Origin: Candidatus Heimdallarchaeota archaeon LC_2
Lineage (GTDB): Archaea > Asgardarchaeota > Heimdallarchaeia > Heimdallarchaeales > Kariarchaeaceae
Direction of reading: 5' to 3'
Length of the DNA stretch: 64,000 bases
Assembly (NCBI GenBank): GCA_001940725.1
Contig: MDVR01000020.1
Span: 16,616-80,615, forward strand
Each line of letters opens with the position of its first letter. Positions within the stretch are counted from its first letter, which is position 1. The notes beneath the pieces are model-generated. The model had not been told where the DNA came from, searched no databases, and was given only the letters and a program-made list of their open reading frames with translations. Position numbers and translations under genes: made by a program. Positions 1,283 to 47,605 of this stretch are shown piece after piece.

Positions 1283-1382
1283 AAATCCTACTAGCTAAAC
1301 GATTAGTTTGATTCAATATTAAATTAAATCCATAATTTAATTCCATAACCGATTATTTTTTTACAACCACACAAAACGATAT

Positions 1383-2393
1383 ATGAAAGAGAAGTCAGTT
1401 ATCATGTCTACCAAAAAAAAATTAAAGAAGCTCACAATTCAACAAGAAATTCATGATCGAAATCCAGGTATGCCATTGGAGCTCGATTGGGTCAACGAAG
1501 TTAGAGTAAATATGAGTGCGGTTGAAAGAAGAGCTCAAACAATAGGAAAAAGAAGATCTATAAAAAAACAGTGGCAAGCTGCGTGGTTATTGAAGGCAGT
1601 TTCTTGCATTGATTTAACAACCCTTGCAGGAGATGATACGCCAGGTAGAGTTAAAAGACTATGTGCAAAGGCAAGACAACCGGTTAGAAAGGATATTTTA
1701 AATTCTTATGAAATCGAGAATTTAAAAGTTGGAGCCGTTTGCGTATATCATAATAGGGTTGAAGAAGCTGTAAAATCCTTAAATGGTAGTAATATCCCTG
1801 TCGCTGCAGTTTCAACAGGGTTTCCAGCAGGTCAAATCTCTTTAGAAGAAAAAATTAGGCAAATTCAACAATCTGTTTCTGCTGGTGCTGTTGAAATTGA
1901 TATTGTAATCTCTCGAGATCATGTTTTAACAGGTGATTGGGAATCACTCTACTCTGAGGTTTCAGCCTTTCGTGAAGTTTGTGGAGCTGCTCATATGAAA
2001 ACAATTCTTGCGACTGGAGAATTAGCTACATTGAGACAAGTTGCGAAATCTAGCTTAGTTTGCATGATGGCTGGTGCTGATTTTATAAAAACTAGTACTG
2101 GTAAAGAAACCATAAATGCCACTTTAGAAGTGAGTTTAACTATGATACGCCAAATTAGGGAATATTATGACAGAACAGGTTATAAAATAGGTTTCAAGCC
2201 TGCGGGCGGTATCAGTAAGGCAAAACAAGCTCTAGCATGGCTTGCATTAATGAAAGAAGAATTAGGTAATGACTGGCTAAATTCAAATTTATTTAGGTTT
2301 GGAGCTAGTAGTTTACTAATGGATATTGAACGGCAGTTGGAACACAATCTAAGTAATCAATATTCTGCCTCGTATAGACACCCAATGGCATAA
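1383..2393 (+). CDS. deoC: deoxyribose-phosphate aldolase, eukaryote-like long form
   Basis: Cleaves 2-deoxyribose-5-phosphate to glyceraldehyde-3-phosphate and acetaldehyde through a Schiff-base lysine. At 336 residues it is longer than typical bacterial DeoC (about 220-260) and carries the N-terminal extension and the DLTTLAGDDTP / RLCAKARQPVRKD segment that I associate with human-type DERA. The Schiff-base lysine is in FIKTSTGKE, and KPAGGI is the phosphate-binding strand. The start is ATG 1383, or ATG 1404 (MSTKKK), both before the conserved region. The next gene begins directly after its stop codon, which indicates a two-gene unit that disposes of the acetaldehyde product. Confidence 0.9.
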   Translation: MKEKSVIMSTKKKLKKLTIQQEIHDRNPGMPLELDWVNEVRVNMSAVERRAQTIGKRRSIKKQWQAAWLLKAVSCIDLTTLAGDDTPGRVKRLCAKARQPVRKDILNSYEIENLKVGAVCVYHNRVEEAVKSLNGSNIPVAAVSTGFPAGQISLEEKIRQIQQSVSAGAVEIDIVISRDHVLTGDWESLYSEVSAFREVCGAAHMKTILATGELATLRQVAKSSLVCMMAGADFIKTSTGKETINATLEVSLTMIRQIREYYDRTGYKIGFKPAGGISKAKQALAWLALMKEELGNDWLNSNLFRFGASSLLMDIERQLEHNLSNQYSASYRHPMA

Positions 2394-4799
2394 GTGATAA
2401 ATATGAATGTAAAAGAAATATTTGAAACTATGGAATACGGACCTGCACCTGAAACAAGTAAATTTGCTGAAGAATGGCTCGCAAGTCACGATCGAAAATT
2501 TAAATTATATATAGATGGAAAATGGACTAATCCTAAATCAGAAAAATATTTTGACACGATTAATCCAGCAAATAAAGAAGTACTTGCCCAAGTGGCTGAA
2601 GCTAACAAAGAAGACGTTGATGATGCAGTCAGAGCTGCAAAGATTGCTCAGATAAAATGGAAGAAATTAGGAGGTCATGGCAGAGCGAGATATATTTACG
2701 CATTGGCTCGTCAGATTCAGAAAAATTCACGTTTATTTGCAGTTATTGAAACCATGGATAATGGAAAACCAATTAGGGAATCCAGAGATATTGATATCCC
2801 TTTAGCTGCAAGGCATTTGTATCATCACGCGGGATGGGCACAGCTTATGGATAAAGAATTTAAAGATTACGAACCTTTAGGTGTTGTTGGTGGAATTGTT
2901 CCTTGGAATTTTCCTTTGTTAATATTTATCTGGAAAATAGCACCAGCTTTGGCAATGGGTAATACATTTGTATTAAAACCTGCAAAGTTGACTTCATTAT
3001 CAGTTTTATTATTTGCAGAAATGTGTCACAATGTTGGATTACCCCCTGGCGTTCTTAACATAACAACTGGTACCGGAAGTAGAACGGGTCAGTATATAAC
3101 AAAACATCAAGATATAGCAAAAATTACATTCACTGGATCGACAAGTGTTGGGAGAATATTAAGAAAAACTATTGCTGGTAGTGGAAAAAAGATAACATTA
3201 GAACTAGGAGGAAAGTCTCCTTTCCTAGTATTTGATGATGCAGATATTGATAGTTCTATTGAGGGTTTGGTTGATGCAATCTGGTTCAATCAAGGTCAAG
3301 TGTGTTGTGCTGGATCGAGGCTATTGGTTCAAGAAAACATAGCAGAACGATTTATTGAGAAATTAAAAACAAGGATGAAACAACTTAGAGTAGGAAATCC
3401 AATGGACAAGGCGATTGACATTGGTGCCATGGTTGATAAAAATCAATTTGAGACTGTTGATAGTTATGTCAAAATTGGAGTTAAAGAAGGAGGTACTAAA
3501 TGGCAACCTGATTTGAAATGTCCCGATAATGGATATTATTATCTTCCCACTTTATTTACAGATGTATCTCCCTCTGACACTATTGTTATTGAGGAAATTT
3601 TCGGTCCTGTACTGGTGAGTATGACATTCAGAACACCTTCTGAGGCTATTGAATTAGCAAACAATTCAAGATATGGTTTGGCAGCTAGTGTATGGACAGA
3701 AAACATTAATTTAGCATTAGATGTCGCACCCGCTCTCAAAGCTGGAACCGTATGGATAAATTGTACAAATATGTTTGATGGTGCATCCGGTTTTGGAGGT
3801 TATCGTGAATCTGGTTTTGGAAGAGAGGGGGGTATCGAAGGATTATGGGACTTTATAAAACCGATTTGGGAAAAACATTTCAAGGAAAAACCTATCTCAC
3901 CTGTAAAACAAATTGCTGAAAAATCGGTTGGAAATGGAAAAGATTCGTCCTCTTTCATTGACAAAACTGCAAAAATGTATATTGGTGGGAAACAAGCAAG
4001 ACCAGACAATGGATATAGTCTGATAATTAAAAATTCGGGAGGTAACATTGTTGGAGAAGTTGGGCATGGAAATCGAAAAGATATCAGGAATGCAGTAGAA
4101 GCAGCTCACGCATGTAAGAAATGGGTTTCCGCAACAGCACATAATAGAGCTCAAGTTATTTACTATATTGCAGAAAATCTTGACTTCAGGAAGAAAGAAT
4201 TTGCCGAAAGAATTCAAGATATGACTGGAGCTTCAGAAAAAATTGCACTAAAGGAGGTTGACCTTTCTATTGAGAGACTATATTATTACGCATCACAAGC
4301 AGATAAATATGATGGAAGAGTTCATCGAGTACCACAAAGAAATGTAACAATAGCAATGCCCGAACCGATTGGAATAATGGGAATTGCTTGTCCCGAGAAT
4401 TATCCACTCCTTGGTTTTATTTCAACTGTTATTCCACCCATTGCTATGGGTAATCGAGTTATTGCAATACCGTCGGAAAAATACCCTCTGAGTGCAACTG
4501 ATTTCTATCAAATATTAGAAACAAGTGATTTACCGGGTGGTACAATAAATATCATTACGGGGAATCAGAAGGAGCTAATTGAAGTTTTATCTAATCATAA
4601 TGATGTAGATGGAATTTGGTATTTTGGAACTGAAAACATATCAGAAATGATAGAGACAAATTCATCAGAAAATATGAAGAGAACCTGGTTAAATTTTGGC
4701 AAATTTAGAGATTGGTTCAATGAACAACATGGTTATGGGACTGAATTTCTAAGAAAAGCAACTGAAATTAAAAATATCTGGATTCCTTATGGAGAATAA
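2394..4799 (+). CDS. two-domain aldehyde dehydrogenase, ALDH16-like
   Basis: About 800 residues, with two aldehyde dehydrogenase domains in one chain. Domain 1 (about residues 30-480) is complete: VPWNFPLL, the general-base glutamate Glu270 in LELGGKSP, and the nucleophile Cys304 in GQVCCAGSR. Domain 2 (about 520-800) keeps the NAD-fold landmarks (ACPENYPLL, GNRVIAIPSEKYPL, LPGGTINIITG) but lacks the GQxC cysteine region and ends in WIPYG. This matches the layout of the ALDH16 family, in which the second domain is catalytically dead. It probably oxidises the acetaldehyde made by DeoC just upstream. GTG 2394 abuts the deoC stop; ATG 2403 or ATG 2430 are alternative starts. Acylating activity (acetyl-CoA product) cannot be excluded. 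Confidence 0.88.
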   Translation: MINMNVKEIFETMEYGPAPETSKFAEEWLASHDRKFKLYIDGKWTNPKSEKYFDTINPANKEVLAQVAEANKEDVDDAVRAAKIAQIKWKKLGGHGRARYIYALARQIQKNSRLFAVIETMDNGKPIRESRDIDIPLAARHLYHHAGWAQLMDKEFKDYEPLGVVGGIVPWNFPLLIFIWKIAPALAMGNTFVLKPAKLTSLSVLLFAEMCHNVGLPPGVLNITTGTGSRTGQYITKHQDIAKITFTGSTSVGRILRKTIAGSGKKITLELGGKSPFLVFDDADIDSSIEGLVDAIWFNQGQVCCAGSRLLVQENIAERFIEKLKTRMKQLRVGNPMDKAIDIGAMVDKNQFETVDSYVKIGVKEGGTKWQPDLKCPDNGYYYLPTLFTDVSPSDTIVIEEIFGPVLVSMTFRTPSEAIELANNSRYGLAASVWTENINLALDVAPALKAGTVWINCTNMFDGASGFGGYRESGFGREGGIEGLWDFIKPIWEKHFKEKPISPVKQIAEKSVGNGKDSSSFIDKTAKMYIGGKQARPDNGYSLIIKNSGGNIVGEVGHGNRKDIRNAVEAAHACKKWVSATAHNRAQVIYYIAENLDFRKKEFAERIQDMTGASEKIALKEVDLSIERLYYYASQADKYDGRVHRVPQRNVTIAMPEPIGIMGIACPENYPLLGFISTVIPPIAMGNRVIAIPSEKYPLSATDFYQILETSDLPGGTINIITGNQKELIEVLSNHNDVDGIWYFGTENISEMIETNSSENMKRTWLNFGKFRDWFNEQHGYGTEFLRKATEIKNIWIPYGE

Positions 4800-4837
4800 T
4801 CTTCATTGCATCTAAAACAATATTCTAGCAAATTTAC

Positions 4838-5176
4838 CTAATTTATTTCTGCCTTAATTTCATCTTCAACCTCGTTTGGTAAAACAAATATAAGTGTGTC
4901 AAGGAGAGATTGATAAAATTCAACTTCATTAATTTTCAAGCCTTCAGCAACTTCTGAAAACTCATCCTGAGTCGCCACCCTATAATACACTCTCCTCATG
5001 TCAAATAAATTTGGTATCCGCACGATTATGCCTTTTTCCCTCAATCGGCGTAATGCATATTTGATGTCTTTTCGTTCAAAATGAGGGAGCGAGATATTGA
5101 TTTGGCTTGGAGTTAATGAATCTTGATTATTGAATAATTTCAGAATTTCATTTGTGGGTTTAGGGAGCTTAACCAT
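4838..5176 (-). CDS. small winged-helix DNA-binding regulator
   Basis: 112 residues. The N-terminal half reads as a winged helix: LTPSQINISL and the helix ERKDIKYALRRLREKGIIVRI, where the last part looks like the recognition helix running into the wing. The C-terminal half is acidic and helical, perhaps a dimerisation tail. It sits between the deoC/ALDH16 pair and the RuBisCO gene and is divergent from the latter, sharing a 320-bp control region with a clean palindrome at 5350-5366. I infer that it regulates itself and the RuBisCO gene. I do not recognise the exact family; a MarR/PadR-like or archaeal TrmB-like small wHTH would fit. Confidence 0.65.
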   Translation of the reverse strand: MVKLPKPTNEILKLFNNQDSLTPSQINISLPHFERKDIKYALRRLREKGIIVRIPNLFDMRRVYYRVATQDEFSEVAEGLKINEVEFYQSLLDTLIFVLPNEVEDEIKAEIN

Positions 5177-5349
5177 GATATCACCTAGGAGAAATCTAGT
5201 AACATTACTATATATCGTTGAATCATAATAAATACTTCTGCCAAAAATAACTTTCTATATAATGTATAACTTTCTTATTTTGGAAGTTTAGAAGCTTATA
5301 GAATTTAATTAAATGAGTATTAGGATATTATTAATAAACTTAATCAAAA

Positions 5350-5366
5350 AGTTGCATTTTGCAACT
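5350..5366. promoter_or_regulatory. palindrome AGTTGCA-TTT-TGCAACT, candidate operator
   Basis: A perfect 7-bp inverted repeat with a 3-nt spacer in the 320-bp divergent region between the winged-helix regulator (starting at 5176, minus) and RuBisCO (plus). It lies about 130 nt upstream of the RuBisCO start and about 175 nt from the regulator start. Its symmetry and the neighbouring DNA-binding gene make it a candidate operator. Nothing else in the region stands out apart from AT-rich sequence and a TATA-like stretch near 5460-5468. Confidence 0.5.
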
Positions 5367-5495
5367 AGATAACCAAAATTGTCAATTGGATAAAAATTAT
5401 TTTTTCCAAGTATAGTATGATTATGAAGAATAGCAATGAAATGAAACTGAGCAAAACGATAAAATATTAGAATGAATTTTCTAAATAGAGTAAGC

Positions 5496-6809
5496 ATGTC
5501 ATATCAAGATAAAGAATTCTTTCAATTGGATTTCAATGCAGATCCCGAGGAGAATGTGATTGTAACATTTGATGTTCACACATCAGCAGATAAAATGGAC
5601 CGAGTCTACCGTGAAATCCCTGCTGAATCAAGTATTGGGACTTGGCAACCAGTTGGAGCAATGACAGATAAAATTCTTACACAATATTCTGCAAAAACCT
5701 TTGATGTTGTGAAAATAAATGAATCATTTTCAAAAATTAAAGTTGCATATCCAATTGACCTATTTGAACCTAACAATGTCCCACAAATGCTTTCATTATT
5801 TGCAGGCAATGTATTTGGTATGAACACAGTACCGATGCTCAGAGTTGATAGTGTAGAAATTCCAAATGAACTTGTTAATAGCTATCCTGGGCCTGCCTTT
5901 GGTCCGCAAGGAATATACAACATTATTGGAATAAATGAAGGACCTATACTTGGAACAATTGTCAAACCTAAACTAGGCTCTCCACCACCAGTTCATGCAC
6001 AAACGACATACGATAGTTGGAGAGGAGCTAATGAAGAAGGTGGTATCACATGGGTAAAAGATGATGAACCCCAAACTAATCAAGACTTCTGTCCATTCGA
6101 AGATAGAATTTCGAGGGTTCTAGAATATGCAGATCAAATAAAATCTGATCAAGGTCGAAATGTAATATATGCATGCAATATTACTGGACCCATCAATACA
6201 ATGTTAAAACGAGCAGAGTATGTGGTAGATCATGGTGGAAAATGCTTGATGATTGATGTTATAACAACTGGTTTTTCAGCAGTACAACACATTAGGGAAC
6301 AAGATTTTGGATTGCCTATTCACGCTCATAGGGCAATGCATGGAGCGATCACAAAGCACCAGCAACATGGAATACATATGGAAGTTCTAGCAAAAATGTT
6401 TAGGCTTGTTGGTGTTGATGGAATTCATACAGGAACTATTTTTGGTAAAATGGGATATGGAAACCTTGAAGAAGATAGAGATGAAGTACTACGGAGTAAC
6501 CACGCATTATTGAATAATGAGTTTGGTAATTTGAAACCTGTCATCCCGATAGCTTCTGGTGGTGTTGGAGTAAAAAATATTGGTAAAATTATTAATGCAT
6601 TGAAACCTCATGTGGTTATAACTGCAGGTGGTGGAGTTCATGGCCACCCTGACGGAACCAGAGCTGGAGCTACTTCAATGGTACAAGCTAAAGAAGCAGC
6701 CTTACAAGGAATATTAGAAGAGGAAGACCTCATTAAATGGTCAAAAGAAAATGATAAAAATGAGCTCTATAAAGCTTTAATTCATCAAACTGATGGATAT
6801 TCACGATAA
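5496..6809 (+). CDS. rbcL: ribulose-1,5-bisphosphate carboxylase, form III
   Basis: Carboxylates RuBP to two 3-phosphoglycerate, the last step of the archaeal AMP pathway. Active-site landmarks are all present: GTIVKPKLG (catalytic Lys157 region), the carbamylated lysine with its metal ligands in WVKDDEP (Lys188, Asp190, Glu191), HAHRAMHGA, loop 6 in TGTIFGKMGYG, and SGGV / GGGVHGHPDG for phosphate binding. About 437 residues, normal for form III. The start is placed at ATG 5496 (MSYQDKEF) and not at ATG 5472, because a TATA-like ATAAAATATT at 5459-5468 would put transcription start near 5489. With the first two genes of the window it completes AMP to RuBP to 3-PG. The neighbouring regulator and palindrome may control it. 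Confidence 0.95.
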   Translation: MSYQDKEFFQLDFNADPEENVIVTFDVHTSADKMDRVYREIPAESSIGTWQPVGAMTDKILTQYSAKTFDVVKINESFSKIKVAYPIDLFEPNNVPQMLSLFAGNVFGMNTVPMLRVDSVEIPNELVNSYPGPAFGPQGIYNIIGINEGPILGTIVKPKLGSPPPVHAQTTYDSWRGANEEGGITWVKDDEPQTNQDFCPFEDRISRVLEYADQIKSDQGRNVIYACNITGPINTMLKRAEYVVDHGGKCLMIDVITTGFSAVQHIREQDFGLPIHAHRAMHGAITKHQQHGIHMEVLAKMFRLVGVDGIHTGTIFGKMGYGNLEEDRDEVLRSNHALLNNEFGNLKPVIPIASGGVGVKNIGKIINALKPHVVITAGGGVHGHPDGTRAGATSMVQAKEAALQGILEEEDLIKWSKENDKNELYKALIHQTDGYSR

Positions 6810-7662: not shown

Positions 7663-7755
7663 GGGCCAATAGCTCAGTCCGGTAGAGTACCTCCTTGGCG
7701 TAAAAATTACTTTCCAAATTGGAGGAAGCCGAGGGTTCAAATCCCCCTTGGTCCA
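7663..7755 (+). tRNA. tRNA-Ala (GGC anticodon) with intron
   Basis: Acceptor stem GGGCCAA pairs with TTGGTCC and contains the G3:U70 alanine identity pair; the discriminator is A. Anticodon stem CCTCC (7690-7694) pairs with GGAGG (7721-7725). The loop reads TTGGCG then resumes with T at 7720, so a 19-nt intron occupies about 7701-7719 at the canonical position after base 37. T loop is TTCAAAT. One A-C mismatch occurs in the T stem (GAGGG against CCCCC). No CCA is encoded beyond the discriminator. Confidence 0.9.
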
Positions 7756-32405: not shown

Positions 32406-32421
32406 TTGTTTACTTATATAA
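32406..32421 (+). promoter_or_regulatory. composite promoter TTGTTTAC-TTATATAA
   Basis: TTGTTTACTTATATAA directly upstream of the subtilase remnant. The TTATATAA half is a TATA box; the TTGTTTAC half occupies the BRE position. The same 15-16-nt word occurs upstream of minus-strand genes at 37989-38003, 40210-40225 and 47590-47605, with a variant at 39214-39229. This is the only plus-strand copy found. Confidence 0.65.
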
Positions 32422-32445
32422 AATTCAACCCTAAATAATAATACC

Positions 32446-33072
32446 TATTATGATGTAGTACAACGATTATATGCCAAGGGGACATTTTTTACCATTGCGG
32501 CTGGAAATGCGTATCGCGATTATAACAATAGAATGATAGATTTCGAGAAAGAAGATATGTATCCTAATAATTTTCCCGAATTTACAACAATATCTGGATA
32601 TCAAATTAGATCTCAATCCTAGACTCAATGGGGAATACATCATTATTATAGTATTAAATCCAATTTTATAGATTTTGCAATGCCATTTGAGCTTTCAATG
32701 CTCAATCTTATTACGCCAATTGGAAAATTCCATCTCAGACCGGGGGGGACTAGTATTTCCACACCCTTAGCAGCAGGGGTAGTCGCATTATTGCATGCAG
32801 CTTGGTCATATAGGCATAGGTATCAATCATTAAATCAAACAGCATATGAGTCTGATTATATCTATCCACTACTTGAGATTTATCCTACAGAATTATATGA
32901 AGCCTTGAAAAAATCAGTTGAGCGGTATCAATACAGTTCCATTTTTATCACTCAAATCACCCTAAATAGCAATTTGGAGATAAATTCTGCAAGAATGATT
33001 GATAGATCTTTTAGGATAGGCTGGGGGGCTATTGATGTATATGATGCAGCAAGAATAATATTAGAGTCATAG
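32446..33072 (+). pseudogene. subtilisin-like protease remnant (S8)
   Basis: Frame with oxyanion-hole asparagine motif FFTIAAGNAYRDY near 32480-32520 and the catalytic serine motif GGTSISTPLAAGVVALLHA near 32740-32800, ending at TAG 33070-33072. The Asp and His catalytic segments that should precede are absent, so the gene is 5'-truncated, and an in-frame TAG interrupts it at 32620-32622. The remaining C-terminal part is otherwise well kept. A composite promoter lies just upstream, which suggests that the deletion fused a foreign promoter to the remnant or removed the middle of the gene. Confidence 0.85.
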
Positions 33073-33294
33073 ATTCTATTTCAGTCATCAACGATGATTT
33101 TAATTCGGCCGTCACTTATATTCATTATTTGTAATAATTATTCAATATCAAAAGTAAAATCAATATTGATCGATGGAGGTTCGCTAATCTTTTGGGCAAA
33201 CAGATTAAAACTAGCTAAAAACTAGTTTTTAATCAATTATCTAGTGAAATCAGAAAAAGTGATAAAGTGATAATAGTCTGAAAAATCGTCAAAA

Positions 33295-35151
33295 ATGCTC
33301 CAAACTATTATCTTGTTGACCTTTACCCTTGCTAGCTTTAAACTTTACATTCCGCAAAGACTAAATGTTGCGAAATTTAAGCCTAAATTGAAATTTAGTG
33401 TAAAGACAGTTAGAAAATCGTCAAAATCCAAGTCCAATGGTTCAAATGGAAAAACCAATGGCAAAACCAATGGCAAAACCAATGGAAAAACAAATGGAAA
33501 AACCAATGGAAAAACCAAGTGGAGAGGAGTTAGGGCGGAAACCCTTCAAATAGCAGAATTATTATTACCCAAGGGTTCCAATCTAGGAAAAAAATTACTT
33601 CACATCTCTCATCGATCCTCGGATCAAGCAGCAAAAAGAAAGTATCATGCCTCTAACCGAGATGGCATTAGAGAGTTGATTAGTGAAGCAGAGGAGCTTG
33701 ACACACAACTCAAGAGGCAAAGAAAGAAGAGTTTATCCCAAATTGATAAGGTAGACATTGCAGACATTGCGGATATTGCAGAGATTACTTCACACACAAA
33801 GAGAGACGAGAAAAGCAAAATCAAACAAGCAGTGCAAGCAATGCAAGCAGTGCAAACAAAGAAAAAACCTGGAAGACCTAATAATCCAATACCTACTAAA
33901 ATAACCCACTTAGAAATTAACAAAGAAAAGCATATAGGACATAAATTAAAGGATCATGGACTCACATCTCATACAGTTATTGATATAGAAACTGCCATCA
34001 ATAAATGGCACTTGGAAGTCATAAAATACCAATTCAGGCAGATTAACTGTCTTGATTGCGATGTGCTACTTTCACCCAAAGATGGCTGGCCTATTCCCAA
34101 AGCAGACCTCTATGGCCACTCGCTTAGGTCTTTGGTGATCTCTTGGCGGATGTCACTGGGTATTAGTTATGGAGATTGTGGTAAAATTCTTAGATCTTTG
34201 ACCAGTCTCTGTGAAGCTAACGTAGCTGATACAAAGAAAATGCAACCAATTCCCATACCCAATAAGGATACCATGAAGAAATGGGTCTTGCAGGCAAGTG
34301 ACAGCTTTAGTCCCCAACTCAACAGTTTGCATCAGCAGATACAGAGTAATAAGGTTCTTTACATTGATGAAACACCGATTTCCTTGAATGGTGAATGTTG
34401 GTTTGTCTGGGTAATTTGTATTGAGAAGAGCTACTATTATCTGCTCAAACCAAGTAAGGGCTTAGATGCCTTGAAAGAGGTGGTTGTGGGTTGTGAACCC
34501 ATGGTGGCAGTAACAGACGATGCTGCAGTCTATAATGCCAAACGACTACGAGAACTGCTGGATTCGGATTTAGAGTTGCAGAAATGTATTGTGCATGTCT
34601 ACCGGGTTTTGGATAAGAGCCTATGCACAATTATCTCAGAGCTGAAAAAGGCTAACAAGAAATCTACGAAATCTACGAAATTTAAAAAATTGGATGTTCT
34701 CAGTGAATACCAGCAAAAGTTGTTGGTCTTCATTCCGAAATTCATTGAACTGTTCTCTGTGGATAAGCGCAGTGAGGCTGAGGAAGGACTGGTGAAACTC
34801 TATGAACAGTTGGAGTTACCAAGGAAAGGCAACTTCAAATCCATCTGGGAACACCGTCATGAACTGTTTGTCTACAAGGATCCCAAATTTGTTGGTCAGC
34901 TACAAAAAACCAATAATATCGCAGAGCAAGGCATGAGAATTGTTGCCAGAATGCGAAAAAGGATCAGATGTTTCCGCTCTGACAAATGTCTGCAGGCTGA
35001 ATTATCCATCTTATCACTATATGCGACTGTATCCAGTCGTAAACAAGATTTCACTAAATTTATGCTCAAAGGCTTGAAAGGAAAACTAAGTGATTCATTC
35101 GATGCATTTGAGCATCCCAACCCGCCTGATGTACCAGATCCGCCAGATTAA
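33295..35151 (+). CDS. IS66-like DDE transposase
   Basis: 618 residues. DDE-type core: YIDETPISLNGECWFVWV (Asp about 357), AVTDDAAVY (Asp about 407) and NNIAEQGMRIVARMRKR (Glu about 544), which match the IS66 pattern (DETP, D, NNxAE). A CxxC motif in NCLDCDVLLSP (about 249-252) recalls the zinc finger that IS66 transposases carry before the core. The N-terminal 90 residues are basic and contain a six-unit NGKT repeat (12-nt DNA units, 33445-33516). The frame is intact, so the element may be active. Accessory IS66 genes (tnpA/tnpB) are not seen, so it is a single-gene variant. The C-terminus ends in a proline/aspartate-rich tail. Confidence 0.88.
   Translation: MLQTIILLTFTLASFKLYIPQRLNVAKFKPKLKFSVKTVRKSSKSKSNGSNGKTNGKTNGKTNGKTNGKTNGKTKWRGVRAETLQIAELLLPKGSNLGKKLLHISHRSSDQAAKRKYHASNRDGIRELISEAEELDTQLKRQRKKSLSQIDKVDIADIADIAEITSHTKRDEKSKIKQAVQAMQAVQTKKKPGRPNNPIPTKITHLEINKEKHIGHKLKDHGLTSHTVIDIETAINKWHLEVIKYQFRQINCLDCDVLLSPKDGWPIPKADLYGHSLRSLVISWRMSLGISYGDCGKILRSLTSLCEANVADTKKMQPIPIPNKDTMKKWVLQASDSFSPQLNSLHQQIQSNKVLYIDETPISLNGECWFVWVICIEKSYYYLLKPSKGLDALKEVVVGCEPMVAVTDDAAVYNAKRLRELLDSDLELQKCIVHVYRVLDKSLCTIISELKKANKKSTKSTKFKKLDVLSEYQQKLLVFIPKFIELFSVDKRSEAEEGLVKLYEQLELPRKGNFKSIWEHRHELFVYKDPKFVGQLQKTNNIAEQGMRIVARMRKRIRCFRSDKCLQAELSILSLYATVSSRKQDFTKFMLKGLKGKLSDSFDAFEHPNPPDVPDPPD
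33445..33516 (+). repeat. 12-nt minisatellite inside the transposase
   Basis: Six near-identical units of AATGGAAAAACC (some AATGGCAAAACC) encode the NGKT repeat in the basic N-terminus of the transposase. It keeps frame whatever the unit number, so length variation would be tolerated. Confidence 0.9.
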
Positions 35152-35355
35152 TAATTTCACGATATCGAAACTTGAAATTGAGAATGCGGTTTTGTTGAGT
35201 AGTGGACACTAGAGCTAATAATGATAACAGATTGAGTTTTCTTCGATGTTTGGTACCTGAATCCGGGTTACTGTAGATTATTGTTTTGTTTTTGAAACTA
35301 ACTGGAAAAAAATCTAGTTATGATGTTATCAATAGTTCAAAGATTGCCTAGAACA

Positions 35356-35439
35356 TTAGCGAACCTCAATCGATGCATGATGTTTTTGCTTTGCGATATC
35401 GATTCCAACATTAATTTTAAAATTGGCAATTCCATTCAT
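35356..35439 (-). pseudogene. IS110-like transposase N-terminal fragment
   Basis: A 27-codon frame beginning at ATG 35439 reads NVGIDIAKQKHHASIEVR, the start of the DEDD domain of IS110/IS1111 transposases (VGIDVAK), then stops. No continuation is found towards 35.2 kb in this strand. It is a decayed remnant next to the IS66-like element. Confidence 0.6.
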
Positions 35440-35782: not shown

Positions 35783-36595
35783 CTAGTCCAAGTCGCAAAT
35801 ATCAATAATTTTCCCTTGGAGTGCGTTACGATACTGTTCTATCTGTTGCACCACTTTATTCAAATTATGAGAGACAGCTTGGCTCTCAAGTATATCTAAG
35901 AATGAAAATATGTTCTCTCTAGTAATCTCAGATCCCAAAGCTACCGATATCAATTCATTAAATTCTTCAATATCCTGATAGTTTTCTTTGTGATAACACA
36001 CAAAATGAGAAATCAAATAAAGATAGTAGGTAAAGTGGCTTTCTTTTTTGTTCCCAGGGAAATTAAATCTTTTGTATATTTGAATCATTGCAATTAATTC
36101 ATTGCGAAACTCGTGATAATATGTGGAAATTAATTCTTTCTGGAATGTGAAATCAATATCTCTAATACTGGAATATACCACAAAAAATCTCTCAATTCTA
36201 GCATAGGTAGTTTCATCGATTAATTTACTCAATACAAATAAGAACGTATTAACCCTATGATCACTCAGCTGATCCAATTTGAAAGAGTCCATCTGAATTA
36301 TATTTCTGATTTGTCCTATACAAATATAAAGCGAGACATCGACAATATCAGTTGAAAATTGGGTCTGAGTTTCTATTTCTTTAAGATGAACTAAGTATCT
36401 GCGTGTAGCCACTGGATTTGATAACCAAACCATCTTCCAAAACAGATTAAATAAACGATCAACAGAATCATGAAGGTTGATATAAGGATCATCAAATATG
36501 GGTAGAGAAGTCATGAGTAGATAATATCTTATATCAACTAATGCAGATAGTAACTGGTGAATATCATTCAGGTAGAGTTGAGATGTGGTTTCCAT
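35783..36595 (-). CDS. helical protein, third gene of the RadA/HhH operon, unknown
   Basis: About 270 residues, predicted almost entirely helical (RVNTFLFVLSKLIDE, HFTYYLYLISHFVCYH, FSFLDILESQ), no signal peptide, no catalytic motif that I can see. The start is ATG 36595, with an AGGTGA ribosome-binding sequence lying just after the stop of the previous gene, so translation probably follows directly from the upstream gene. It is the last gene of a three-gene minus-strand unit (38042 RadA-like, 36608 HhH/Cys protein, this one). The function is not recognised. Confidence 0.65.
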   Translation of the reverse strand: METTSQLYLNDIHQLLSALVDIRYYLLMTSLPIFDDPYINLHDSVDRLFNLFWKMVWLSNPVATRRYLVHLKEIETQTQFSTDIVDVSLYICIGQIRNIIQMDSFKLDQLSDHRVNTFLFVLSKLIDETTYARIERFFVVYSSIRDIDFTFQKELISTYYHEFRNELIAMIQIYKRFNFPGNKKESHFTYYLYLISHFVCYHKENYQDIEEFNELISVALGSEITRENIFSFLDILESQAVSHNLNKVVQQIEQYRNALQGKIIDICDLD

Positions 36596-36607
36596 AGGTA
36601 TCACCTA

Positions 36608-37966
36608 TCAATCATTTGGACACAAAATCTCGTGATAATAAGCAGTATCCTCAAGGATTGGTAGTTCGAAAGTCGTGAAAAATTGGGTGGCAAACCGTTT
36701 ATTCAAGTGGGTTACAAACTTGTCTACGCTCATCTCTTTAATGTTCTTGTCAAACCATGAATAGATACAGGAAGCAAAGATCTCCAAGTAGTTCCTCAGA
36801 GCAGTATCCCTCGGAATTTCTCTATAACCTAGCGTCGAACTAAATTTTCTTCTGAGATCAAGTTTTAAGTTACGGGTCCAGTGCGATAAACTAGGATTGA
36901 TATGAGAAAGAGAAAATGCTCTGGGACTCAAATTATGAATAATATGCCTATACGAAGGATAAAGAGGGACATAAACCATCATCATATCACCGGGTATAAG
37001 ATCGAAAGCAGTTGCTACATCACTGTGAATAATTATGACTGGCCAGTGATCCATAAAAAAATCAGATAAAGATAAATATTTGATGCTATCAATACCGGCA
37101 AAACAACCAAGAAATTCGTCAAGGTGCTCAGTAGTCTTTCTTTCAAGAGCATTGAAATCCTTAACCCCTCCTTCAATCCATTTTTTGAAGTCACTGTATG
37201 AATGTATCGAGACTTCTCCAATCATGGATGATAAATGTTTGATTGCGTTTGTTAAAAATCCGGTCTCCCAAACAAGAGCGGAAGAAGGATAATACTCCCT
37301 TAACGGGATTGGATCTCTATCCTCAAGGTGATATGAGACATGCTCAATCTCTATATAGAAGAATTCAAATCTATAGTCAAATATTTTATCGCGTTTGTGT
37401 TTACCTTTGTATCGCTCACCTGGAATTGTTGTTCTCCTATCAACTAGTAAGAATAGTTTTACTCTATCACACATACAATTAATGCTAGTGATCCCGCTCT
37501 CATCAGTTTTCATTTCTAAATTAGCAATCAATATTTTTTTATGATTGATTAAATGACGAATATTGATAGGAATGCAACCAGGACATTTGAAATCAAGAAG
37601 ATGAAGTTCAATATCAAAATTATAGGTATCTGGTCGATTTGCTATGCGTTTTAATCTGGAATTTAGTTTCCTTTCTCTTGCTTTAATTCTTTTCTCAGTC
37701 TTGTTCTTTTTTATCCTGTTGAGTTTAGATAATATCTTTTGATCAAGAAGTGATTGTTGTTCCTGGATAAACAAGTAAATTCTCTTTGCATTAGATGGGG
37801 TTAATCCTTCAATATTTTCTAAATCTTCGAGGTCGTAAACAAGTAGTTCTCCAGGAGATTCTATTATATCATTATTCAATGCCTGAAGTGTCCTCTTCTT
37901 AGCTGCTGTTGATTGAAAATGAATCTGATCAAGGAATTCTTGGAAAGAGGTGTCCGCTATTAGCAC
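36608..37966 (-). CDS. HhH-domain protein with cysteine pairs, unknown function
   Basis: 452 residues. Residues 5-68 form a helix-hairpin-helix domain (LEDLENIEGLTPSNAKRIY) that aligns with the N-terminus of the neighbouring RadA-like protein. A very basic helix follows (about 80-110). CPGC (Cys128, Cys131) and CMC (Cys164, Cys166) could bind zinc. The rest (170-452) is an unrecognised alpha/beta domain with HWPVIIIHSDVATAFDLIPGD. The start is GTG 37966, about 26 nt downstream of a TATA box (37988-37995), so the mRNA is probably leaderless. DNA binding is inferred from HhH plus basic helix. A nuclease fold is possible but no motif proves it. Confidence 0.7.
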   Translation of the reverse strand: MLIADTSFQEFLDQIHFQSTAAKKRTLQALNNDIIESPGELLVYDLEDLENIEGLTPSNAKRIYLFIQEQQSLLDQKILSKLNRIKKNKTEKRIKARERKLNSRLKRIANRPDTYNFDIELHLLDFKCPGCIPINIRHLINHKKILIANLEMKTDESGITSINCMCDRVKLFLLVDRRTTIPGERYKGKHKRDKIFDYRFEFFYIEIEHVSYHLEDRDPIPLREYYPSSALVWETGFLTNAIKHLSSMIGEVSIHSYSDFKKWIEGGVKDFNALERKTTEHLDEFLGCFAGIDSIKYLSLSDFFMDHWPVIIIHSDVATAFDLIPGDMMMVYVPLYPSYRHIIHNLSPRAFSLSHINPSLSHWTRNLKLDLRRKFSSTLGYREIPRDTALRNYLEIFASCIYSWFDKNIKEMSVDKFVTHLNKRFATQFFTTFELPILEDTAYYHEILCPND

Positions 37967-37988
37967 ACTTGTTAATAGATATCAATCG

Positions 37989-38003
37989 TATATAAGTAAA
38001 CAA
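37989..38003 (-). promoter_or_regulatory. composite promoter before the HhH/Cys gene
   Basis: On the minus strand TTGTTTACTTATATA, identical over 15 nt to the copies at 40210, 47590 and 32406. The TATA box centre is about 26 nt from the GTG start of the gene at 37966, so the transcript would be leaderless. Confidence 0.7.
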
Positions 38004-38041
38004 GGATTATTTACCAATCGAGTAGGAAAACCTCAGTAATA

Positions 38042-39190
38042 TTATTTGAATTGATGTAGGCTCTCGGATTGATTTTTGATAACATTATTGTATTCAGTAC
38101 TGCCACGCACTCCGTATTTGGATACAATTGCTTGAGCTCTGAATTTACGGTGCTGATTAGATTTAGTACAACTAATTGTGATAGGCAAGCTATTGGTCCT
38201 CTCTCTACTATATGACCAAGACGGTATGTATTTACTAACACTCTGCATCTCTCTCTGTTCAGTTTTCCTTGCTCGTGAGATAAAAAGACTCATGCTACAA
38301 AAATATTTAATGGAATATTCCAGTTTTGATATGAATTCTGGTGAAAAATGGACTTGTCCGAAATGACGTTCCAGACTGTTAGTAACAAGTGTGATGGTAC
38401 CAAAGTAATGGCCCAATTGTCTGAGATAGATGAAGAGATGATGATGTAATCTGTCTCTGTGTCCAATAGTTGACATTAATCGCCCTATTCCTTTGAAATG
38501 GCTACTTGGGTATTGATTGCCTATTATCTCGGATAGATTGTCAATTATTACCATTCCAATCTTGGCGGGATCTTGTGATTTGAGATGGGTTAGGATCTCA
38601 TCAAGATTTCGGGTGTTACTTACAAACAAGTTTTTTTCCAGTAGTGACTCACGTACTTTGTGAAACTCATTTAACACCTTCATATTTGCCAGTGGGGGCT
38701 CAAAAGATGAGTTGAAGTACAATACTCTTTTATTCCATCCACTATTTTTCCTGTACTTCATCATTTGTAGTGCTAGTGATTGGCATAGTTTGGTCTTTCC
38801 AATTCCTGGTTCACCTACAAGTTCTATAATCGATCCACTTCGGATACCCACACCATCTATTGATGTTGTAAAGTATCCAGCTCCCAATTCCTCATTCAAC
38901 TTATCGATATTGGTTTCCAAGTATTCAAATTCCTGTTTCATCTCAGATACAGGCTTCAGATTACTACCCCTTAGCCTGATTAGATGCTTGAATAATATCT
39001 TAGCTGTGCTTTCTGATATGCCCTCAATGCACTCTATCTCATCTCTATTCATCATTAGTAATTGTCGAGTTAGATGTAAATCAGCTCTTTTCAGATTTTG
39101 AAGGGCGCGATCCCTTGTGCTTGGCATCTTGAATGGTACTTCTGCGATGAATTCCTCTATATTCATGTCGAGTATTGTAATTACACTCAT
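38042..39190 (-). CDS. RadA/Rad51-like ATPase with HhH domain
   Basis: 382 residues. N-terminal HhH domain (residues 10-72, IECIEGISESTAKIL), then a RecA-type ATPase core with Walker A GEPGIGKT (126-133) and Walker B MVIIDN (213-218). FTTSIDGVGIRSGSIIELVG before the P-loop is RadA/RadB-like. The segment between (SSFEPPLAN) and the C-terminus diverge from true RadA, and the canonical polymerisation and L2 features are not clear, so I call it a RadA paralogue and not the main recombinase. It heads the three-gene unit; the following gene has the same type of HhH N-terminus. Upstream is a variant of the island promoter, placing the transcription start within a few bases of the ATG. Confidence 0.82.
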   Translation of the reverse strand: MSVITILDMNIEEFIAEVPFKMPSTRDRALQNLKRADLHLTRQLLMMNRDEIECIEGISESTAKILFKHLIRLRGSNLKPVSEMKQEFEYLETNIDKLNEELGAGYFTTSIDGVGIRSGSIIELVGEPGIGKTKLCQSLALQMMKYRKNSGWNKRVLYFNSSFEPPLANMKVLNEFHKVRESLLEKNLFVSNTRNLDEILTHLKSQDPAKIGMVIIDNLSEIIGNQYPSSHFKGIGRLMSTIGHRDRLHHHLFIYLRQLGHYFGTITLVTNSLERHFGQVHFSPEFISKLEYSIKYFCSMSLFISRARKTEQREMQSVSKYIPSWSYSRERTNSLPITISCTKSNQHRKFRAQAIVSKYGVRGSTEYNNVIKNQSESLHQFK

Positions 39191-39213
39191 GGAATAATAA
39201 TATGTAGTGAATA

Positions 39214-39229
39214 TTATATAAGTGAAATC
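39214..39229 (-). promoter_or_regulatory. composite promoter variant before the RadA-like gene
   Basis: Minus strand: TGATTTCACTTATATAA, which shares TTNAC-TTATATAA-like spacing with the other island promoters but differs in the upstream half. TATA centre about 27 nt from the ATG at 39190. Confidence 0.5.
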
Positions 39230-39390: not shown

Positions 39391-40188
39391 TTATTCATAG
39401 AAAGAAAATACTATCTTATTGTTCTTTAAATAAATAAACAAATCCAACTCGTTTTCGTGCTTCTTAATTCGTTCATAGGCTGTAGGTGGAAAATTGACAC
39501 GAACAGATCCGTCATTGTTGGAATAGATACCTCTGGATTCAGTAAACTTGAGTTCCTTATCTATATCATGATCATATACAATAAAAAGGATTTTCGTGTT
39601 CGAATTCGACAATTCGATTCTGACCGTATATTCACCTTCTTTATTCTGTAAAAAATGATAGACTTTTTTTGCAATAGTAAAACGATAGATGGTATTTTTC
39701 TTGCTGGATCTTCTGCTTCTGATCTTGAATAAACTGCGTTCTGTACGATATAAGCAATTTTCTTCTTCCTTGAGTGATAATTCTTCTGGAGATAATGTTG
39801 AATCAATAAGCAATTTATCCAACAACTCTATTCTTGTTTTAAAATCCCCCTCCCGTTCCAATTTTTGATAGATACCACGACAAAAACGACGAACTGATTT
39901 GTTGGGAACCTTGGCGATACAATCCTTCGCCAATGAAAGATAATCATCTTCTGCATATATTTCAAGCGGGTTATAGTATTCATTGCTAAATTGTTCTTCA
40001 AAGAGATCGAATAATGTCAATAGATTTAGTTTATTCACCCCAGAGATATCAACTCGTAGTGTAATATTATCAAATCTTAGAACTGCAACCATGCCCTCAT
40101 CTACAAAGATGTTGCCTGGGAAAAAATTATCTAACCTTATAATAACAGGTTCATCAAAATCCATCATATCCATCATTGATTCATTCAT
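39391..40188 (-). CDS. protein of unknown function
   Basis: About 265 residues; the methionine-rich N-terminus (MNESMMDMMDF) offers several starts. The TATA box at 40210-40217 would put transcription start near 40188, so the first ATG (40194) is too close and the second (40188) or a later one is used. N-terminal part is strand-rich (VAVLRFDNITLRVDISG), the middle is helical and basic (FKIRSRRSSKK), the C-terminus is strand-rich. No family recognised. Confidence 0.6.
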   Translation of the reverse strand: MNESMMDMMDFDEPVIIRLDNFFPGNIFVDEGMVAVLRFDNITLRVDISGVNKLNLLTLFDLFEEQFSNEYYNPLEIYAEDDYLSLAKDCIAKVPNKSVRRFCRGIYQKLEREGDFKTRIELLDKLLIDSTLSPEELSLKEEENCLYRTERSLFKIRSRRSSKKNTIYRFTIAKKVYHFLQNKEGEYTVRIELSNSNTKILFIVYDHDIDKELKFTESRGIYSNNDGSVRVNFPPTAYERIKKHENELDLFIYLKNNKIVFSFYE

Positions 40189-40209
40189 GCACATATTTAG
40201 GTTTTAATT

Positions 40210-40225
40210 TTATATAAGTAAACAA
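40210..40225 (-). promoter_or_regulatory. composite promoter before the 39391 gene
   Basis: Minus strand TTGTTTACTTATATAA, an exact match to the copies at 47590-47605 and 32406-32421. Confidence 0.7.
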
Positions 40226-40438: not shown

Positions 40439-41338
40439 TTAATTTAATTTAGATGAATCTAGATCGTCCAATAGTTTTCTACCAAATCCATGATTAAATT
40501 TCGTTGGTTTACCCCACTTTTTACGAGTTAAATACACATAAATGACAATATTGACAATTAGTAGTGAATATGCAATAAGTTGTTCAATGGAGAAAAAACC
40601 ATCTTGCTCTTTGAATGGCTCATCAAGATTATAAAGTTCCTGAGTAAGGATATCATATTGGTATCTTCGTGTTATATGGTGATCCTGATCCTTGGATTCC
40701 CTGGTTTCATTAATACTGACAATTTCTCTATTTAGATAGAGAAGGATACCCGAATCCCGGTCATAGGTCATCTTGGTCGTCGTGTAAACTCCTTGAGTTC
40801 GATTTTTTGATGTATCACCAAAAAATAATCCTTCCGCTGAAATCATTTCAATCTCAGCTACCTCTTGATTTTCGGCATACTTATACTCTACATCGAGGAA
40901 ATCTGAGGAATTAGAATTAAATGAGTACTTGTAAATAGATCCGAAGTTACTGAAGTACTCCCAATCTGTCACAATAACAATTGCACCTGGATAATAGGGG
41001 TTAACCTCGTATCTATCATCTCTGTAACCTAATATTTCACCAGAATGAGTAAAGTACACCATATTGTTTGGATCATGAATTTGATCATTAAATTCATTTT
41101 CAGATGCAATCAGATAAGTATTTATCGATTTGTAGATCGAATTTTCTTGGATGAGAAATTCAAAGTACTCCTCATCTCCCATAGGTGGCCCCCCAATAGC
41201 ATAGGTAATATCTGCAGTTTTATACTTCAAGGTGGTTCCGCTATCGATCCTGAGTAGGTTATTATTTCCTGACGCTTGGGCTCTGGTAAGTAATGAGAGA
41301 AATAATATTCCAATTATGATTAGGTGATTGTATCTCAT
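40439..41338 (-). CDS. secreted, membrane-anchored protein, unknown
   Basis: 299 residues. N-terminal signal peptide (LIIIGILFLSLLTRAQASG), an extracellular strand-rich body with GTTLKYKTADITYAIGG at its start, and a C-terminal helix (QLIAYSLLIVNIVIYVYL) with the basic stop-transfer TRKKWGKPTK. This gives a type I topology. No known domain; the beginning of the body recalls lipoprotein-like beta-sandwich proteins, but only vaguely. TTCTTATATA lies 15-25 nt upstream of the ATG. Confidence 0.6.
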   Translation of the reverse strand: MRYNHLIIIGILFLSLLTRAQASGNNNLLRIDSGTTLKYKTADITYAIGGPPMGDEEYFEFLIQENSIYKSINTYLIASENEFNDQIHDPNNMVYFTHSGEILGYRDDRYEVNPYYPGAIVIVTDWEYFSNFGSIYKYSFNSNSSDFLDVEYKYAENQEVAEIEMISAEGLFFGDTSKNRTQGVYTTTKMTYDRDSGILLYLNREIVSINETRESKDQDHHITRRYQYDILTQELYNLDEPFKEQDGFFSIEQLIAYSLLIVNIVIYVYLTRKKWGKPTKFNHGFGRKLLDDLDSSKLN

Positions 41339-41563
41339 ATAGATATATAATATTGAATTGTATATAAGAAAAAAAAATTAGTCGATAGTTGTAATCGATT
41401 TCTCAAACCATCATATCTATCATCAACAAGATAGATGATGATTTTCCGATCCCTCATATAACATGGTACTTATGGACATACGAATATATCTAGATCAATT
41501 TTATATTAACAAATAAGGAAAATCGATCAAAGGATCCATCACTCAATTGAGTCTTACAAAATA

Positions 41564-42064
41564 TTAACTGACAGACATTTTCTCCACATTCTTTTCAACA
41601 ATCTTCTTAATCTTTCCCAGGATAACTTTCATTAACAGATGTATATCTTTCTTATACCCACCAAATCTTGTGCTAATTAAATTGTTACTATTATCAAAGT
41701 GATGGATAATCATACCAGATCTCATGGAAAGATATACACCAGCAAACGCAATAGCAATTGAAATGTAAAATCCCATCATGAAATGTAATTTAGAAAGACC
41801 GACGTTTTCTTCGTAAATTATTATGAGTGCGACAAGAGGTGTGGTCAGATATAGCAAAAAATTACCAAGTTTCTTATATTGGTCCAAATCATCAACCTTC
41901 TTGATCTTTTCGTATCTGATAGATTTTTCAATCTGCTGATCATTTGAGACAAAGTTTAGAGTCTCGTCCCAAGAGGTCATTACGCCTTTATTGCCATCAC
42001 ATTTTATTCGACAAAGGTAATGTTGTATTTTCATTTTCATCTTACCAAAGAAAATTCCTGTCAT
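41564..42064 (-). CDS. two-helix membrane protein, unknown
   Basis: 166 residues. The soluble N-terminal 70 residues (DETLNFVSNDQQIEKS) are followed by two membrane helices (LGNFLLYLTTPLVALIII and FMMGFYISIAIAFAGVYL) and a C-terminal basic helix (LLMKVILGKIKKIVEKNV). Resembles small membrane-anchored proteins with a cytoplasmic helical tail. No family recognised. TTCTTATATAG upstream is a TATA candidate. Confidence 0.55.
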   Translation of the reverse strand: MTGIFFGKMKMKIQHYLCRIKCDGNKGVMTSWDETLNFVSNDQQIEKSIRYEKIKKVDDLDQYKKLGNFLLYLTTPLVALIIIYEENVGLSKLHFMMGFYISIAIAFAGVYLSMRSGMIIHHFDNSNNLISTRFGGYKKDIHLLMKVILGKIKKIVEKNVEKMSVS

Positions 42065-42293: not shown

Positions 42294-43211
42294 ATGATTG
42301 AAGGTAAATTAGGTTATGAAAGCGAGAAGCCAGAAATGAAATATCAGAGATCAAGTGAAATAGACAATTACACACAAGCTCATCACTTTCCCGGATTTAT
42401 TAAGACTGAGGAAATAACCAAGCTTATCGAGATTACTCAGAATTTGGCAGAGATCATGAATTTATCTGAAAAGGATTGTGAAATAATATACAAAACTTAT
42501 GTGAAGATAACTCAAAGAATCAGAGACAGTCAAAATGGCATAGTTTATTTCTCAGCCAAATACACAATCACATTGTTAAATGCCTTCAGGGTTAATCATC
42601 ATTTGAGAAGCAGGCATATATTAGAATACAAGGATCTGATGAAAATTCTGCCGATATTGGGAATCAATAAGAATACGCGAACGCAAAATTTTGGGTTACA
42701 GCTTATAGAATTCGACTATAGAAAATATCGCTACAATATTGATGAATATGCAGTCTTGTACTGGGATATCTTGCTATCCTCACCACGATTTAAGCCTCAT
42801 CTGAAGAAATTGGGAATAAATAGTAATAAGTTTTTGACCATACTAGAAATTATATTCCAGGAGACAAAAAATAAGTATCCATCAGATCCATCAGCAATTC
42901 ATTCAAAATCCAAATTTTCCTATGTCCTGAATCTGTTTATATCATGTTATCAGTTGATCGATCGCCCCAATAATACGAACACTGAGAAATCAACAAATGA
43001 TATTGCAGATGAGCAAGCCAATAAGACAGACATTGAATCAGATCTGAGATTTACTATTGCGGAAATAATATTTGAGAATAAAATGTTAATAGGAAGTTTG
43101 ATTGGAATAGATCGTAGATTTAGAAGTGATGTCAAATTTGATAAACTGAAGAGTGAACTTAGTCTGGACAATGAATTGATGTTGAAGATAAAGGCAGAAT
43201 TCAATCAATAA
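42294..43211 (+). CDS. helical protein of unknown function
   Basis: 305 residues and the only plus-strand gene in this part of the island. Two helical blocks (about 35-120 and 135-215) have a faint cyclin-fold look, for example YFSAKYTITLLNAFR followed by ILEYKDLMKILPIL, as in TFB core repeats, but there is no zinc ribbon and I would not call it a transcription factor. A disordered linker (PNNTNTEKSTND) precedes a C-terminal helical unit. The start is ATG 42294 shortly after GAGGAAATG. It converges on the giant gene with a 14-bp gap. Confidence 0.55.
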   Translation: MIEGKLGYESEKPEMKYQRSSEIDNYTQAHHFPGFIKTEEITKLIEITQNLAEIMNLSEKDCEIIYKTYVKITQRIRDSQNGIVYFSAKYTITLLNAFRVNHHLRSRHILEYKDLMKILPILGINKNTRTQNFGLQLIEFDYRKYRYNIDEYAVLYWDILLSSPRFKPHLKKLGINSNKFLTILEIIFQETKNKYPSDPSAIHSKSKFSYVLNLFISCYQLIDRPNNTNTEKSTNDIADEQANKTDIESDLRFTIAEIIFENKMLIGSLIGIDRRFRSDVKFDKLKSELSLDNELMLKIKAEFNQ

Positions 43212-43225
43212 GGTAATAAATTATT

Positions 43226-47563
<4,338 letters not shown>

Positions 47564-47589: not shown

Positions 47590-47605
47590 TTATATAAGTA
47601 AACAA
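47590..47605 (-). promoter_or_regulatory. composite promoter before the giant gene
   Basis: Minus strand TTGTTTACTTATATAA, exact match to the copies at 40210-40225 and 32406-32421. TATA box is 27-34 nt from the ATG at 47563. Confidence 0.7.

Follow-up and report, generated by a model that had tools for sequence, protein, structure and literature searches.

What might a RadA-like ATPase do whose gene stands beside that of a second protein with the same kind of N-terminal helix-hairpin-helix (HhH) domain? The question is raised by a stretch of 64,000 nucleotides (nt) from Candidatus Heimdallarchaeota archaeon LC_2 (assembly GCA_001940725.1, contig MDVR01000020.1, positions 16,616 to 80,615 of the forward strand), here called the window. 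Few known archaea are as closely related to eukaryotes as the Heimdallarchaeia, and the locus may bear on the origin of meiotic recombinases and of cell-to-cell DNA exchange. An earlier note on this DNA had proposed a unit of three genes, and their open reading frames (ORFs) were confirmed, all on the minus strand:

38042 to 39190, minus strand: RadA-like ATPase of 382 amino acids (aa), with an N-terminal HhH (about residues 6 to 75), a RecA-fold ATPase domain (about 110 to 275) and a divergent C-terminal part
36608 to 37966, minus strand: 452-aa HhH protein, with the HhH (residues 1 to 75), a basic helix (about 76 to 110), an invariant CxxC...CxC and a C-terminal part without known relatives
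35783 to 36595, minus strand: orphan protein of 270 aa (273 aa if the GTG at 36604 is the start)

The answer we favor, at somewhat less than an even chance, is that the locus is a regulon extending from 37.9 to 47.6 kb of the window, that it is a divergent form of a chromosomal gene cluster of Heimdallarchaeia, and that its products are a recombination module coupled to the cell envelope, which may serve DNA exchange. The observations behind this answer are the homology of the ATPase to RadA, the HhH common to the two proteins, a common promoter element, the co-occurrence of the gene pair and one case of linkage between the family of a 1445-aa neighbor and a RadA-like gene.

The RadA-like ATPase

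The HhH N-terminus of the 382-aa protein is followed by a RecA-fold ATPase domain with Walker A (GEPGIGKT, residues 126 to 133) and Walker B (MVIIDN, residues 213 to 218) motifs, as the earlier note had described, and G126, P128, I130, G131, K132, I215, I216, D217 and N218 were invariant in all six aligned RadA-like sequences (that of the window and five relatives). This arrangement places the protein in the RAD51/RadA superfamily at the level of a paralogue. It matched Pfam Rad51 (PF08423) with an E value of 2.2e-6 and 27.6 bits, above the cut-off of 22, and in a phmmer search of the PDB, residues 30 to 285 matched yeast Rad51 (E 2.4e-6). Its scores against the NCBIfam models of canonical RadA were below the cut-offs (NF003301, 42.9 bits against 259; TIGR02236, 36.7 against 361). 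The predicted structure had a predicted local distance difference test (pLDDT) score of 49 and was weak outside the core; all 50 PDB entries listed for it were RAD51, RadA, DMC1 or RAD51 paralogues. In a tree of 50 rows, the family of the window protein split off at a 100/100 branch of length 2.39, separate from canonical RadA and from short RecA-like proteins, a placement to be read with caution in view of the program's long-branch warnings. Judged by its sequence, the protein is a fast-diverging RAD51/RadA paralogue.

Six relatives were found, with identities of 90, 86, 81, 86 (a fragment), 47 and 47%, and these fell into two subtypes. Scans of genomes and viral contigs with the RadA-like alignment gave no match. 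Canonical RadA was present alongside the RadA-like protein in relatives. The canonical RadA proteins of two genomes, G037 (L130:5514-6842, G037:C8) and G042 (L135:13146-14429, G042:C97), carried approximately 100 additional N-terminal residues, for which weak matches below the cut-off were obtained to DNA polymerase IV (both proteins) and LigA (L135). In G038 (L082:2318-2950, G038:C166), a 210-aa protein with an XPA C-terminal domain (PF05181, E 6.3e-7, exceeding the cut-off) is encoded on the same strand as the RadA-like gene and stops 60 nt upstream of it.

The shared HhH domain and the 452-aa protein

The claim that the 452-aa protein carries an HhH of the same kind as the ATPase was borne out by profile comparison. 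HHalign aligned its residues 3 to 66 with residues 6 to 69 of the RadA-like family over 64 ungapped columns at 28% identity, with a score of 63.7 (P 1.7e-12), while 300 column-shuffled controls scored no higher than 21.7, so that at the level of sequence the two domains are homologous. The score was 64 against the family of the window protein, 46 against G037 to G039 and 37 against the G011-G029 group, and it was at chance level against G042 to G044 (19) and canonical RadA (18). Because the scores are high within the locus-type family and at chance level against canonical RadA, the HhH of the 452-aa protein most probably derives from the locus-type RadA-like family or shares a recent common ancestor with it; partial tandem duplication may have been one route.

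The two cysteine pairs and the basic helix noted earlier were also recovered: C128, C131, C164 and C166 did not vary among the four proteins of this family, and the stretch from residue 75 to 115 is strongly basic, with 16 Lys/Arg against 4 Asp/Glu. Outside the HhH, sequence and profile searches found no relatives beyond the protein's own family. As part of the favored reading, and with the same reserve, the 452-aa protein is taken as a lineage-specific accessory of the RadA-like protein, with which it might interact physically or, as the earlier note proposed, share a DNA target.

Co-occurrence of the genes

The RadA-like and 452-aa genes were found together in all four genomes that have the 452-aa gene. 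For the three besides the window's own (79 to 80% identity), this is deduced from the fact that each 452-aa relative shares its source and contig size (6225, 6797 and 19283 bases) with a RadA-like relative, and adjacency there is likewise deduced. In one relative assembly, the pair bears the consecutive locus tags GPJ54_01140 and GPJ54_01145. No 452-aa relative was matched to the contigs of the RadA-like relatives P0007, P0009 and P0010. The named relatives of both proteins all belong to Candidatus Heimdallarchaeota.

The third gene behaved differently. A protein search returned only the protein itself and viral contigs held no relative, whereas the same method had given the 452-aa relatives. 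The ribosome-binding site that the earlier note placed after its neighbor's stop codon is indeed present, as AGGTGAT downstream of the 452-aa stop, and it ends 4 nt ahead of the ATG at 36595; because of this spacing and of a database copy of 270 aa, that ATG is the more likely start, and the protein length of 273 aa was corrected accordingly. The note had made co-occurrence elsewhere the check on its three-gene unit. As the third gene was found only in its own genome, the unit is not conserved, and what survives is a claim about two genes within a larger locus.

A promoter element common to six genes

Three exact copies of the 16-mer TTGTTTACTTATATAA lie in the window, and a copy with one mismatch precedes the 452-aa gene. 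With up to three mismatches, 8 matches were counted against 4.0 in shuffled sequences (3 of 100 shuffles reached 8). This bare count is modest; the stronger evidence lies in the placement. With up to four mismatches, a level reached by approximately 2.4% of random 90-mers of the window, the element was found 15 to 26 nt upstream of 6 of the 49 starts tested, those of the genes for the 452-aa, RadA-like, 267-, 299-, 166- and 1445-aa proteins. These six are all the tested minus-strand genes with starts from 37.9 to 47.6 kb. None of the other 43 starts had it at that distance, and two had it at 59 and 69 nt. Eight of the 57 window ORFs had been excluded from the test as antisense or overlapping. 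The consensus was taken from repeats in this region; the 1445-, 299- and 166-aa and RadA-like genes were not used in defining it. The elements of the gene pair, and an orphan copy, are as follows:

37988 to 38003, minus strand: TTGTTTACTTATATAC, the copy of the promoter element that belongs to the 452-aa gene, 21 nt upstream of the start codon
39214 to 39229, minus strand: promoter element GATTTCACTTATATAA of the RadA-like gene, with 4 mismatches, 23 nt upstream of the start (coordinates derived from this distance)
32406 to 32421, plus strand: orphan exact copy; over 32406 to 32437, identity with the promoter and leader region of the 267-aa gene is 94%

Since the RadA-like and 452-aa genes each have a TATA-like element of their own, the three genes do not appear to form a single transcription unit, and by sequence only the 452/270-aa pair is closely coupled. 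The short distance between element and start suggests leaderless transcripts. On the RadA-like contig of G037, a related 14-mer (up to four mismatches) was found at 10 of 22 starts, against none of 24 on other contigs. The element may be the mark of a regulon, a view held with the same reserve as the reading to which it belongs, and the genes that carry it would then be co-regulated. The neighboring genes concerned, together with one on the opposite strand, are listed here, with membrane segments called from a crude hydropathy window:

39391 to 40194, minus strand: 267-aa protein, family unrecognized; exact element at 40210 to 40225
40439 to 41338, minus strand: 299-aa protein, hydrophobic (by eye) at its N-terminus and with a transmembrane segment at its C-terminus; three-mismatch element at 41360 to 41375
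41564 to 42064, minus strand: 166-aa protein with two transmembrane segments; four-mismatch element 20 nt upstream of the start
42294 to 43211, plus strand: 305-aa protein, family unrecognized; two-mismatch element 59 nt upstream; uncertain member of the locus
43226 to 47563, minus strand: 1445-aa protein, for which G037 and G039 alone yielded relatives; exact element at 47590 to 47605

Linkage and the wider cluster in relatives

Relatives were sought in the Asgard phylum (227 genomes), identified as such through a Thorarchaeota genome, and in the class of G037 (58 genomes), which we take to be Heimdallarchaeia because the nearest RadA-like genes occur in that class. In the phylum, with at most the best two candidates scored per genome, the 1445-aa protein had a single match at an E value of 0.001 or below, in G039 (2.2e-13). 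This relative lies on an 11-kb contig (G039:C302) that also bears the RadA-like gene of G039, which is one clear case of linkage. A second relative, of 1405 aa, lies on a G037 contig (G037:C25) with two RadA-like genes. A profile of the three sequences matched 2 of the 58 class genomes, with two further small matches in G039 on contigs without a RadA-like hit. Both RadA-like contigs, that of G037 and that of G039, carry an XPD/DinG-like helicase.

A wider arrangement was seen in surveys in which at most the best eight RadA-like candidates per genome were scored and ORFs below 80 to 100 aa, along with shorter overlapping ORFs, were removed mechanically. In G016, G026, G029 and the single-contig G012, the RadA-like gene is grouped with a giant predicted surface protein of approximately 2100 aa (c1), two membrane proteins (c6 and c9), c15, a short RecA-like ATPase, c7, a protein of approximately 1040 aa (c4) and a superfamily 2 (SF2) helicase (c2); the first three of these genomes also share the chromosomal neighbors of the cluster. 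G021 and G015 have the same cluster minus c15, where the contig ends. In G019, all the pieces looked at (c7, c4, c2, RadA-like and c1) were present. Similar rows were found in G044 (RadA-like gene, XPD-like helicase, membrane proteins and giant protein) and in G047, G050 and G055, where an approximately 340-aa RadA stands with an XPD/DinG-like helicase, another helicase-like protein, c7, membrane proteins and a giant protein. In all 12 loci of the G011-G029 group (L118-L125, L127-L129, L131), the giant protein starts 1 to 14 nt past the RadA-like stop on the same strand; these proteins have a hydrophobic N-terminus and, where complete, measure approximately 2100 aa.

Family c7 occurred in 41 of the 58 class genomes at an E value of 0.01 or below; at 0.001, it was retained in 40 of those, and elsewhere in the phylum it occurred in 3 of 169 genomes. 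Among 27 class genomes with both c7 and a RadA or RadA-like hit, the two lay within 20 kb on the same contig in 16 and far apart in one. In G027 and G032, the hit near c7 is probably the short RecA-like gene, and the c7 contigs of G059, G060 and G062 carry a cluster without the long RadA-like gene. By eye, c7 resembles a PD-(D/E)XK nuclease, with invariant D55, E70 and E72, and 1 of 10 members weakly matched HSDR_N_2 (E 0.041); "nuclease-like" is used here in this sense and no further. Of 10 c4 members, 5 matched RPA_C, a winged-helix family (best E 1.1e-5), and one P-loop match was obtained to a PADLOC model (mad8, E 1e-4). A resemblance of c4 to degenerate HerA/VirB4 ATPases, seen by eye, is not claimed, as Pfam and PDB profiles showed no such family.

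Like the cluster, the window locus has a RadA-like gene. The odds of its membership are about even. Profiles of c1, c2, c4, c6, c7, c9, c15, c16 and c246 gave no match at an E value of 5 or below among the window ORFs of at least 60 aa, so that the case for membership consists of the RadA-like gene, the family of the 1445-aa protein, the promoter element and the presence of membrane proteins, which are unspecific.

Further points weigh against the favored reading. The promoter test was post hoc, with a consensus from repeats of the same region, and in G039 the 14-mer showed no difference between three contigs (5 of 20 starts) and TFB genes (2 of 6); the element could mark strong TATA promoters generally. 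The RadA-like branch is very long. The 1445-aa relative of G037 was located by inspecting the RadA-like contig and so is not independent, and alone it is weak (E 0.003; P 3.2e-4). The RadA or RadA-like hit and c7 lay on different contigs in 10 of the 27 genomes, and in G053, RadA and the helicase lie 1.1 Mb from c7. Among the cluster proteins scanned, Pfam recognized no channel, pilin, relaxase or VirB4/HerA family, with one VirB3 match below the cut-off (E 0.056).

Proposed function and alternative explanations

A role in DNA processing is proposed because RecA-type ATPases adjoin helicases and a nuclease-like protein, and a role at the envelope because predicted surface and membrane proteins stand in the same gene rows. 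The RadA-like and 452-aa proteins would be the DNA-binding ATPase and the adaptor of a regulon that also makes the 1445-aa and predicted membrane proteins. DNA at the cell envelope would be unwound or trimmed, and the ATPase would load onto it through its HhH, aided by the 452-aa adaptor; canonical RadA would then receive the DNA for recombination, as in cell-to-cell DNA exchange. A bolder form of this proposal, which we consider rather doubtful, is that Heimdallarchaeia possess an undescribed chromosomal machine of RAD51-type ATPases, XPD/DinG-like and other SF2 helicases, and nuclease-like, approximately 1000-aa, membrane and giant surface proteins that moves DNA across the envelope for recombination, the window holding a strongly diverged version whose RadA-like protein has acquired a dedicated HhH adaptor (the 452-aa protein) and a common promoter.

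The main competitor, possible and on balance doubtful, is that the pair acts inside the cell as a recombination mediator, the RadA-like protein aiding canonical RadA in the manner of RAD51 paralogues, while the 452-aa protein serves as its DNA-binding partner and the membrane neighbors are incidental. RAD51 and RadA are the closest sequence relatives, canonical RadA coexists with the protein in relatives, and membrane proteins may be frequent neighbors by chance. Against this explanation stand the common promoter, which ties the pair to the 299-, 166- and 1445-aa genes, and the giant predicted surface protein directly after the RadA-like stop in every locus of the G011-G029 group.

A defense or conflict module, in which the fast-evolving ATPase, its orphan partners and the helicase and nuclease-like genes of relatives act against foreign DNA, is unlikely. 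The divergence and the orphan genes would fit, as would the matches to PADLOC models obtained for helicases of the cluster in relatives (c2 to HamB, 1.9e-36; c16 to type IV DinG, 1.3e-58). In the window, the 452-, 273- and 1445-aa proteins matched no PADLOC model at an E value of 0.1, the RadA-like protein matched over short P-loop stretches only (mad8, E 1e-4), and the spread of c7 through the class exceeds what is expected of a patchy defense island.

That the pair serves to maintain a mobile or integrated element is very improbable: an IS66-family element does adjoin the locus and a promoter copy has been displaced to 32406, but viral contigs held no relatives of the RadA-like, 273- and 452-aa proteins, phages none of the 452-aa protein and plasmids none of the RadA-like protein, a scan of 29 of the window's 57 ORFs gave no integrase or relaxase, the flanks are of ordinary metabolism, and the cluster keeps the same chromosomal neighbors in G016, G026 and G029.

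Neighboring genes and surroundings

The window is, by its gene content, chromosomal DNA, with ordinary metabolic genes in its flanks. HHalign comparison with singletons of other loci found no counterparts of the 166-, 267-, 299-, 305-, 273- and 452-aa proteins. The 305-aa protein was considered as a TFB cyclin fold and this was rejected, its score against the TFB proteins of relatives (15.7) being below that of shuffles (up to 21.3) and PDB and NCBIfam giving nothing similar. Other features of the window are as follows:

33151 to 35392: IS66-family element, with a transposase (33295 to 35151) between 49-nt inverted repeats (33151 to 33199 and 35344 to 35392) that are 80% complementary
32422 to 33072: broken subtilase-like gene (by eye) with an in-frame stop, downstream of the orphan element at 32406
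7663 to 7755: tRNA according to Rfam, missed by ARAGORN and possibly intron-containing
350 to 6809, plus strand: consecutive genes for a ribose-1,5-bisphosphate isomerase-like protein, a deoxyribose-phosphate aldolase, an aldehyde dehydrogenase and a type III-like RuBisCO

Comparison with known systems

A literature search that did not extend to most subscription papers or to any bioRxiv preprints found no report of the cluster, the RadA-like/452-aa pair or the promoter. With archaeal RadA and RAD51 paralogues, the RadA-like protein shares the HhH N-terminus, both Walker motifs, the RecA fold and its best Pfam, NCBIfam and PDB matches; it differs in its score against NF003301, its own long branch and a promoter element held in common with membrane-protein genes. 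Duplication of RadA has already been published, as a second RadA clade of Heimdallarchaea and Gerdarchaea, in an analysis from which long-branch sequences were removed (Matsuo et al. 2025, PMC12722695). In the main text of that paper the terms synteny, operon and neighbo- are absent, and in the part available clusters, an HhH partner and a promoter were not found. The N-terminus of the 452-aa protein weakly matches HHH_5 (PF14520; E 0.0032, below the cut-off), and the predicted model of this part resembles the N-terminal domain of RAD51 and other HhH or SAM domains; the remainder of the protein, without relatives outside its family, sets it apart.

The Ced and Ted systems of DNA import offer a functional parallel. 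They differ in that none of the cluster proteins scanned here was assigned by Pfam to a CedA, CedB/VirB4 or pilin family, and RadA is absent from the main text of PMC9905601. According to the same source, in the part available, HerA-like and Rad50 genes belong to the Ted loci of Thermoproteota, and the HerA operon is regulated together with Ced. If the DNA-exchange link is wrong, a new branch of RAD51 paralogues remains, with an HhH partner of the same family. If it is right, RadA-like genes clustered with helicases and nuclease-like, membrane and surface proteins would be a testable candidate for Asgard DNA exchange. Like Ced and Ted (PMC9905601, in the part available), they would be chromosomal archaeal DNA-transfer loci with recombination genes, and it is by this analogy, with no homology claimed, that DNA exchange coupled to recombination is proposed here.

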